A stretch of DNA of 13,529 nucleotides from Candidatus Eiseniibacteriota bacterium. GTDB taxonomy: Bacteria > JAFGKV01. Every line of letters begins with the position of its first letter. The first letter of the stretch is position 1. The notes beneath the pieces were generated by a model. It had not been told where the DNA came from and made no database searches. It worked only from the letters and a program-made list of their open reading frames with translations. The position numbers were made by a program, and so were the translations under genes. The stretch is from positions 1-13,529 of the forward strand of contig JALOPK010000060.1 of NCBI GenBank assembly GCA_025453925.1. Reading direction: 5' to 3'. This document shows positions 10,542-13,529 of the stretch, piece after piece.

Positions 10542-11887
10542 AGCCGGACCGGGCCACCGTGGGGTTGATCCCACCCCAGGCGCCGGAGGCGGAGTTGGCG
10601 GTGCTCGGGGCGGTGATGCTCGACCGCAACGCGCTCCTCACCGTGCAGGAAATCCTGGAGTCCGACGCGTTCTACTCCCCGGCCAACCGGACCATCTACC
10701 GCACCATGCTCGAACTCCAGGCAAAGGGCGTTCCCATCGACCTGGTCACGGTGCAGGAGGGGTTGCGGGCCGGGGGCACTCTGGACGCCACCGGCGGAAC
10801 CATGTACCTGAGCGAGCTGCTGGAGCATGTCGCGACCGCGGCCAATGTCGACTACTATGCCCACATCGTCGCCGAGAAGGCGCGCCTGCGGGAAATGATC
10901 AGTGTCGCGACGAAGATCACGTCGGGATGCTACCAGGGGCCCGACAATGTCGAGCGATTCCTCGACGAGGCCGAGCAGGCGGTCTACAATGTCGGCCAGT
11001 CGAAGCGAACCGGCCACTTCAGGCCGCTCAAGGAGCTTGTTGCCGAGGCCCTGGTGGAACTCGACGCCATCCACGGCGGCGACCGGAAGCGGACCGGATT
11101 GCCCACGGGGTTTCCTGACCTTGATGACCCCCTCAGCGGGCTTCATCCCGGGAATCTGATCATCATCGCCGGGCGACCCGCCATGGGGAAGACCGCCTTA
11201 GCCCTCGACATGATTCGCCATGCCACGGTGCGCGAGAAGGTGCCGTGCGCGTTCTTCAGCCTCGAAATGAGTCATTTTGAAATCGCGCAGCGGCTTCTCA
11301 GCGCGGAGTCCGGAATTGACTCCCATCGGCTGCGCACCGGCAGAATGAGCGAAAGCGACTGGCGGGCAGTCACCGGTGTGATGGGTGTGTTGTCCGAGGC
11401 GGCCCTCTGGGTGGACGACAGCGCGGGGCTGTCGGTGGCCGAGATCCGCGCCAAGTCCCGCAGGCTGAAGTCGGAACACGAGATCGGGCTCGTGGTGGTC
11501 GACTACCTCCAACTGGTCTCGTCGGGGAAGAACGCGGAATCCAGGCAGATCGAAATCTCCGAGATCTCGCGCGGGCTCAAGGCGCTGGCGAAGGAGCTTT
11601 CCCTTCCCGTGATTGCGCTTTCCCAGCTCAACCGAAAGCCGGAGGACCGCCGCGAAGGCAAGCGGCCCCAACTGTCCGACCTCCGGGAGTCCGGCGCCAT
11701 CGAACAGGACGCCGACGTTGTTCTGTTGATCTACCGGCCCGGCGCATACGATCGTGAGGAGGATCAGACCAAGACCGAACTGATCATCGCCAAGCAGCGC
11801 AATGGCCCGACGGGGACCGTCGACCTGGTGTTCAAGTCGGCGACCACCCGTTTCTATAGCGCTTCGTCGCGAGCCGTGACGCCGTGA
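10538..11887 (+). CDS. dnaB: Replicative DNA helicase DnaB
   Basis: DnaB is the hexameric helicase that unwinds DNA at the replication fork and recruits primase. The 449-aa protein has an N-terminal helical domain starting PPQAPEAELAVLGAVMLD, a linker (about 155-185) and a RecA-like domain. That domain contains GLHPGNLIIIAGRPAMGKT (Walker A 212-219), FFSLEMS (239-245), VVVDYLQL (319-326), ALSQLNR, DLRESGAIEQDAD (381-393) and AKQRNGPTG (418-426). No intein is present, although DnaB P-loops are common intein sites. ATG 10538 overlaps the glycosylase stop by 4 nt, with GAGG 10 nt upstream. The stop overlaps radA as GTGA. Confidence 0.98.
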   Translation: MKPDRATVGLIPPQAPEAELAVLGAVMLDRNALLTVQEILESDAFYSPANRTIYRTMLELQAKGVPIDLVTVQEGLRAGGTLDATGGTMYLSELLEHVATAANVDYYAHIVAEKARLREMISVATKITSGCYQGPDNVERFLDEAEQAVYNVGQSKRTGHFRPLKELVAEALVELDAIHGGDRKRTGLPTGFPDLDDPLSGLHPGNLIIIAGRPAMGKTALALDMIRHATVREKVPCAFFSLEMSHFEIAQRLLSAESGIDSHRLRTGRMSESDWRAVTGVMGVLSEAALWVDDSAGLSVAEIRAKSRRLKSEHEIGLVVVDYLQLVSSGKNAESRQIEISEISRGLKALAKELSLPVIALSQLNRKPEDRREGKRPQLSDLRESGAIEQDADVVLLIYRPGAYDREEDQTKTELIIAKQRNGPTGTVDLVFKSATTRFYSASSRAVTP

Positions 11888-13455
11888 CGAAGAAGATCGT
11901 GTTCCGCTGCGCCGAATGCGGGGCCCAGAGTCCACGCTGGCAGGGCCGCTGCCCCGAATGCGGGCAGTGGAACACCTACAGCGAGGAGCGGGACGAACCG
12001 CACTCCTCGTTCGCCATTCCTTCCGGGGAACGGCCGACGGCCCTCGCTGAGGTCGGCGATGCCGATGCGGCAAGGATCTCGTCGGGCTCTTCGGAACTCG
12101 ATCTCGTGCTCGGGGGAGGAATCGTCCCGGGATCCCTGGTGCTCCTCGGGGGCGACCCGGGAATCGGCAAATCGACCCTGCTTCTCCAGACTGCCGCGCG
12201 GGTCGCGTCATCCGGCCGCACGGTGCTCTACGCGTCCGGCGAGGAATCGAGCCGACAGATCGGGCTCCGGGCACAGCGGCTGGCGGTGCCGATCGCGGGC
12301 ATCCAGGTGATGGCCAACAACAATGTGGAGGACGTGGAGGAGGCGGCGCGAACCATCGCCCCCGATCTCCTCATCGCCGACTCAATCCAGACACTGTACC
12401 AGCCGAGCCTCCCCGGGGCTCCCGGCACGGTGTCACAGGTGCGGCAATGCGCATCACGGCTCATGGGGCTGGCCAAGGTGCAGAACGTCGCGACATTCCT
12501 GGTCGGCCATGTCACCAAGGAGGGTTCCCTGGCGGGCCCCAGGGTGCTCGAACACATGGTGGACACGGTGCTGTACTTCGAGGGAGAGAGGTTTCAGAGT
12601 TTTCGCGTCTTGCGGGCGACGAAGAACCGCTTTGGCTCGACCAACGAGATCGGCGTGTTCGAGATGGGCGAGCGCGGGCTGACGGACGCCACCGACGTTT
12701 CCCGCTTCTTCGTCGAGGAGCACGCCGAGCCGGTGTCGGGGAGCGTGCTCATCGCCACCCAGGAAGGCAGCCGTACGCTCATCGTCGAAGTGCAGGCCCT
12801 GATATCGCCTACGGCGTACCCGACTCCTCAGCGCGTCTGCACCGGGATCGAGCGCCAGAGGCTCTCTCTGCTGCTTGCCGTGCTGGAGAAGCGGGCGGGC
12901 ATCCACACCAGCACCAAGGACGTGTTCGTCAATGTGGTGGGTGGCGTCCAGGTGGTCGAGCCTGCCGCCGACCTCGGGGTGGTCCTGGCCGTGGCATCCG
13001 CGGTCATAGACGCACCTCTTCCGGGGCGTGTGGCCGTCTGCGGTGAAGTCGGCCTTGCAGGCGAAGTACGGCGGGTCACTCAGGCCGGCAAACGGGCAGG
13101 CAGCCAGGAGCCGCTGCTGGACGCGTACCTGTACAGGTCACGGGTGCGCTGCGGCCGCTTGGCGTGCCGGTGCATGCACAGCGACTACCGGCACGAGGCT
13201 TGGTGCCTGTCCTTCACCGAGGATGGTCGGTCCCGTACCTTGACTGTGCCGCGGGAGTGGCTCAGGCGGGTAGCCAAGGCCACGGACGCCTACCGCGAGG
13301 CTCGCAGCCTGCTGCGGAGCGTGGAGGCGGCAGCCCGCGTCGCGTCTGAGGCCTTCGGGGAGCGCCTCAACGCGAGGGTCAAAGCCGGCCGTGAACTGCT
13401 GGCTGAGCTGATCGCCGCCAAGACCGGCAGGTCAGCAAAGGGGGTGTCCCGATGA
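11884..13455 (+). CDS. radA: RadA recombination protein, C-terminus replaced by a foreign DUF6788-like segment
   Basis: RadA is a RecA-like ATPase that promotes branch migration in recombination. Residues 1-400 are normal: zinc finger C9-x2-C12 and C23-x2-C26, P-loop GGDPGIGKST (89-98), YASGEES, LLIADSIQT, the RadA motif KNRFG (247-251), and the Lon-like domain with FVNVVGGVQVVEPAADLGV and CGEVGLAGEVRRVTQ (386-400). A normal protein of about 455 residues would continue with its last 50 or so residues of RadA. Instead, after Q400 or A401, the frame runs into about 122 residues with RCGRLACRC and SRTLTVPREWL, unlike RadA, giving 523 aa. GTG 11884 overlaps dnaB by 4 nt and has no clear binding site, so coupling is likely. 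Whether the chimera retains RadA activity cannot be read; the ATPase part is intact. Junction placement is uncertain by about 4 codons. Confidence 0.9.
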   Translation: MTKKIVFRCAECGAQSPRWQGRCPECGQWNTYSEERDEPHSSFAIPSGERPTALAEVGDADAARISSGSSELDLVLGGGIVPGSLVLLGGDPGIGKSTLLLQTAARVASSGRTVLYASGEESSRQIGLRAQRLAVPIAGIQVMANNNVEDVEEAARTIAPDLLIADSIQTLYQPSLPGAPGTVSQVRQCASRLMGLAKVQNVATFLVGHVTKEGSLAGPRVLEHMVDTVLYFEGERFQSFRVLRATKNRFGSTNEIGVFEMGERGLTDATDVSRFFVEEHAEPVSGSVLIATQEGSRTLIVEVQALISPTAYPTPQRVCTGIERQRLSLLLAVLEKRAGIHTSTKDVFVNVVGGVQVVEPAADLGVVLAVASAVIDAPLPGRVAVCGEVGLAGEVRRVTQAGKRAGSQEPLLDAYLYRSRVRCGRLACRCMHSDYRHEAWCLSFTEDGRSRTLTVPREWLRRVAKATDAYREARSLLRSVEAAARVASEAFGERLNARVKAGRELLAELIAAKTGRSAKGVSR

Positions 13456-13529
13456 GCGAGTGCCACGCCGAGGCACAGACTGACTTCGAGGCGTTCTTCA
13501 GCCTCTGGTCGGAGGCCGATGTGGAGGCT
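13084..13529 (+). mobile_element. Left part of a probable two-ORF mobile element inserted in radA
   Basis: From about 13084 the sequence stops resembling radA. It encodes a segment with RCGxxxxCxC, an aromatic or basic stretch, SRTLTVPREW and a long helical tail. From recall, such small proteins (DUF6788-like) are often encoded beside transposases. A second ORF starts within its stop. The right end, the inverted repeats and the target duplication are not in the window, so the element type is inferred from protein style only. Confidence 0.5.
13452..13529 (+). CDS. Partial ORF after the radA chimera, possible transposase start
   Basis: ATG 13452 overlaps the preceding stop as ATGA and opens 26 codons to the window edge, beginning MSECHAEAQTDFEAFF. 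This acidic, helical opening would fit the N-terminus of a transposase of the kind paired with the upstream small protein (perhaps ISKra4-like), but 26 residues are too few to decide. No strong binding site is seen, so it is probably coupled to the upstream ORF. Confidence 0.4.
   Translation, partial: MSECHAEAQTDFEAFFSLWSEADVEA

Follow-up and report, generated by a model that had tools for sequence, protein, structure and literature searches.

An in-frame join of radA and an IS-associated DUF6788 gene near a contig end, most likely the product of assembly or of gene disruption by mobile DNA

The C-terminal Lon-like domain of RadA spans residues 290-453 of the S. pneumoniae protein and forms the scaffold of a planar hexamer (PMC5512693, PMC11612176). 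Among insertion sequences (ISs), some ISKra4 elements bear extra genes of unknown function (PMC3942029), and chimeric contigs arising from k-mers common to several species are a described failure of short-read de Bruijn assemblers (PMC7299287). All three subjects bear on the DNA stretch analysed here (the window), a complete contig (C418) of 13,529 bases, in which the last complete open reading frame (ORF; 11884-13455, plus strand, 523 codons) runs as a single open frame from radA into a DUF6788 coding region, with no stop at the join, as the preliminary description had it.

Set against RadA/Sms (TIGR00416; PDB 5LKM, 8RXC), residues 1-405 of the window ORF match along their whole length, but the Lon-like domain lacks its final ~44 residues, in whose place stand 118 foreign ones. 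Set against the DUF6788 ORFs of ISKra4-, IS701-, IS4-like and IS66-type ISs, the foreign tail has the same RCGxxxCxC motif, a similar length and a next ORF overlapping its stop codon, but lacks the start codon, the first ~7 codons, the 5' leader and the inverted repeat; the nearest relatives are only ~40% identical to the tail, and the probable transposase of the window is cut off. Chimeric short-read metagenome contigs resemble the locus in joining unrelated sequences close to where a contig of a fragmented bin ends, beside mobile-element DNA. The missing IS end, the nearby contig end and the short-read assembly lean towards an artefact or a broken gene, and in every likely reading the finding is ordinary: the join most likely arose in assembly or by disruption of radA rather than through evolution of a new protein.

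The radA part (11884-13098, plus strand) encodes the zinc finger, the ATPase and the KNRFG motif, together with the Lon-like domain over the first three quarters of its length. In a profile search, the ORF scored 519.8 bits against TIGR00416 (equivalog cut-off, 403.05), with residues 3-404 aligned to positions 4-415 of the 454-position model, and residues 1-407 are 86% identical to RadA of the same-genus genome G001. The zinc finger, P-loop and KNRFG motif are all intact, as previously described, and the native C-terminus is indeed missing: the RadA part ends at residue 405, whereas RadA of G001 has 449 residues and the native end REAAKLGLSKIIVPF, and RadA also ends normally in the same-family genome G002. 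In an alignment to PDB 5LKM, the residues lost at the join correspond to about 410-453 of S. pneumoniae RadA, or ~44 positions of the 164-residue Lon-like domain. With this end of the ring domain removed, RadA function has very probably been lost, a conclusion drawn from the sequence that gives no support to an ATPase still active behind its new tail, one of the possibilities raised earlier.

The family assignment of the preliminary description stands; its end point at residue 400 does not, because homology to RadA continues for ~5 more residues, to A405. The window and radA of G001 agree up to AAACGGGC (13090-13097), the last common base being at ~13097, and where G001 reads ACTCAGGCatcgAAACGGGC, the window reads ACTCAGGCcggcAAACGGGC. 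Identity between the two sequences is 10-12 per 15 bases before the join and 5-6 after it. The foreign part begins at about 13098-13099, which places the junction within 13097-13099 and, as the window is a complete contig, 432 bp from the contig end. The RadA and DUF6788 halves both score well above chance.

The tail (13099-13455, plus strand), searched on its own, matches PF20586 (DUF6788) with 31.4 bits, above the gathering cut-off of 27.2, in an alignment that covers only positions 27-96 of the 103-position model, in agreement with the view that it is foreign to RadA and DUF6788-like. No in-frame ATG, GTG or TTG occurs after residue 395 until the GTG at 13144, beside the motif, as had been stated, so that the foreign gene has no start codon of its own and the DUF6788 domain is not complete. 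Inspection of the sequence shows an AGGAG with CTG codons downstream of it, at 13114 and 13117 (13106-13119, plus strand), which might serve DUF6788 as a non-standard internal start, a speculative assignment. Codon usage in the tail shows no difference from that of the host, a comparison with little power over 354 bases, and composition was set aside as uninformative about the origin of the tail. We found no solved structure for DUF6788. Overlapping the DUF6788 stop as ATGA at 13452, a second ORF begins (13452-13529, plus strand), of which only 26 codons precede the contig end; these 26 residues, too short for family assignment by themselves, gave no score above shuffled sequences and no domain match, and with its start arranged as in the relatives, the ORF is probably the beginning of a transposase gene.

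A motif-based scan of the genomes of 85,000 species yielded 23 relatives of the tail, many in Actinomycetes, at up to about 44% identity; the closest ones found, at ~40%, belong to other phyla, and searches of plasmids, phages and viral contigs gave no close relative. At no fewer than 11 of these DUF6788 loci, the stop codon overlaps the next ORF by the same -3 arrangement as the ATGA at 13452, and the next genes that were scanned encode ISKra4, IS701, IS66 or DDE_Tnp_1 transposases. Because relatives share this stop/start overlap and the scanned next genes encode transposases, we conclude with high confidence that the tail represents the leading gene of an IS-like element, which bears out its earlier assignment to mobile-element DNA.

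In the ISKra4/IS701-type relatives, the start methionine of DUF6788 lies ~7 residues ahead of the first residue retained in the window. In the ISKra4-type relatives, a terminal inverted repeat of the GGGTGCGGCTCC-CTGGAGTGA type lies 140-300 bp upstream of DUF6788 and the repeat of the other end ~20-35 bp after the transposase gene; the repeats were clearly read at L060, L069, L071, L072, L073 and L076, and no clear repeat was seen at L064 and L065. The six loci with readable repeats represent Actinomycete ISKra4-type elements of ~2.0-2.1 kb with a common type of inverted repeat. The window contains neither the start methionine and leader of these relatives nor, with up to 3 mismatches allowed, a repeat of the GGGTGCGGCTCC-CTGGAGTGA type, although the element may be of another type. 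Insertion of a complete ISKra4-type element is excluded, the start, leader and repeat all being missing at the join.

The 3.9-Mb bin (G000) that contains the window consists of 502 contigs and is 82% complete, and its phylum is represented in the searched collection by three genomes only (G000-G002). Neither the bin nor the two related genomes contain another DUF6788 gene. The preliminary description had proposed looking for the missing radA 3' end downstream; no such end was found in the window or elsewhere in the bin, and the bin, at its 82% completeness, holds no second radA. Exact 17-bp matches to the radA 3' end at two contig ends were dismissed as chance, as they lie inside an unrelated 99-bp contig overlap. 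In G001 (C199, locus L082), radA and an rpoD-like gene are transcribed towards each other, and a tRNA-Met gene separates them; this rpoD-like neighbor and its tRNA stretch are not present in the bin, where the only match to the neighbor is 39% identical. Contigs C337 and C251 are exact reverse complements of each other over their first 99 bases (loci L091 and L092) and are probably neighbors in the genome; this exact overlap of contig starts indicates that the bin was assembled from short reads on a de Bruijn graph, at a k of ~99.

We favor, at a probability of roughly 0.5, an assembly or library chimera as the source of the join. The ordinary radA of the host would have been linked, either during assembly or already in a chimeric library fragment, with DNA from an IS-like element, and the point of linkage would lie where the element's first gene (DUF6788) starts or slightly within it, upstream of the transposase gene; the frame would have stayed open by luck, the join falling in phase (a chance of ~1 in 3) in DNA that is GC-rich and stop-poor. 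We infer that the join is then absent from the organism. Such a chimera agrees with the closeness of the join to the end of a contig in a fragmented bin, with its position within the element's coding region, or right where this region begins, instead of at an element end, with the ordinary RadA ends of G001 and G002, and with the lack of other DUF6788 genes in the bin and its relatives, the closest tail relatives being in other phyla. Against it, a final k of ~99 calls for long shared k-mers unless a join made at a smaller k was inherited, and no shared stretch could be demonstrated; the host-like codon usage of the tail, of little power at this length, also counts against it. A real break of radA by a truncated or unusual IS, the two variants taken jointly, is a serious contender at somewhat under an even chance, and IS-type DNA is expected at contig ends because repeats break assemblies. 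The variant in which a 5'-truncated or rearranged DUF6788-transposase IS sits in radA, leaving a radA pseudogene whose fusion protein, if made, would not function, is possible but doubtful: the DUF6788 frame is intact and the ATGA-coupled next start is kept as in the relatives, the codon usage agrees with that of the host, and the incomplete bin offers no second radA or free radA 3' end, but a fresh insertion should bring a complete left end to the join, which is absent, so that a further event, a deletion or recombination with its end point no more than a few codons from the element start, would be needed. That the join records insertion of an intact element belonging to an unsampled type, with its left end at 13098 and DUF6788 read from the CTG at 13117 behind the AGGAG or translated only as a fusion to a host gene, is improbable. 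The AGGAG (13106-13110) lies 6 bases before this CTG, many relatives have ATG, GTG or TTG in the same alignment column, and as the closest relatives are merely ~40% identical, the element end could differ; however, all ISKra4-type relatives with readable ends have 140-300 bp between inverted repeat and DUF6788, and the retained EPLLDAYLYR aligns with the coding sequence of the relatives, which leaves almost no room for an end repeat. CTG start codons, moreover, are rare.

Two further readings give the fusion a role. An element whose startless first gene is translated by in-frame capture of a host gene, with RadA-DUF6788 coupled to the transposase, is very improbable; among the features of the locus, only the AGGAG-CTG spacing favors an element that borrows the translation start of its host. 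The least credible reading is that RadA and DUF6788 have evolved into a functional fusion protein in which the C-terminus has taken on a new role. Such a fusion would fit the open frame and the intact zinc finger, P-loop and KNRFG motif but is seen in one contig only, has lost the part of the hexamer scaffold equivalent to about 410-453 in S. pneumoniae RadA and is followed by a probable transposase gene. The preliminary description had named relatives that normally carry this tail as grounds for abandoning the idea of a replaced C-terminus; no relative has the fusion, RadA being ordinary in both G001 and G002, and in the other searched genomes no match extends convincingly into the tail.

Taken at face value, the fusion would enter databases as a new RadA domain architecture, and fusions of this kind, in frame and close to where the contigs of a fragmented bin end, should be backed by reads before they are annotated as such. 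A real break would merely record the loss of a dispensable repair gene. The placement of mobile-element genes under the operon promoter, also proposed earlier, would hold only for a real join.

The loci of the scan provide an observation of their own. At L059-L081, DUF6788 genes lie directly before transposase genes of unrelated IS families (ISKra4, IS701, IS66 and DDE_Tnp_1/IS4-like), the stop codon of the one often overlapping the start codon of the other, and, judged from gene order, DUF6788 may recur at these loci as an accessory gene with a helper or regulatory role. We found no name for a DUF6788 gene beside transposases in the literature searched, and its placement before transposases of several unrelated families may aid annotation of the domain. 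At the other end of the fused ORF, the stop codon of dnaB and the start codon of radA overlap as GTGA (11884-11887), which suggests that the replicative helicase and RadA are translationally coupled.
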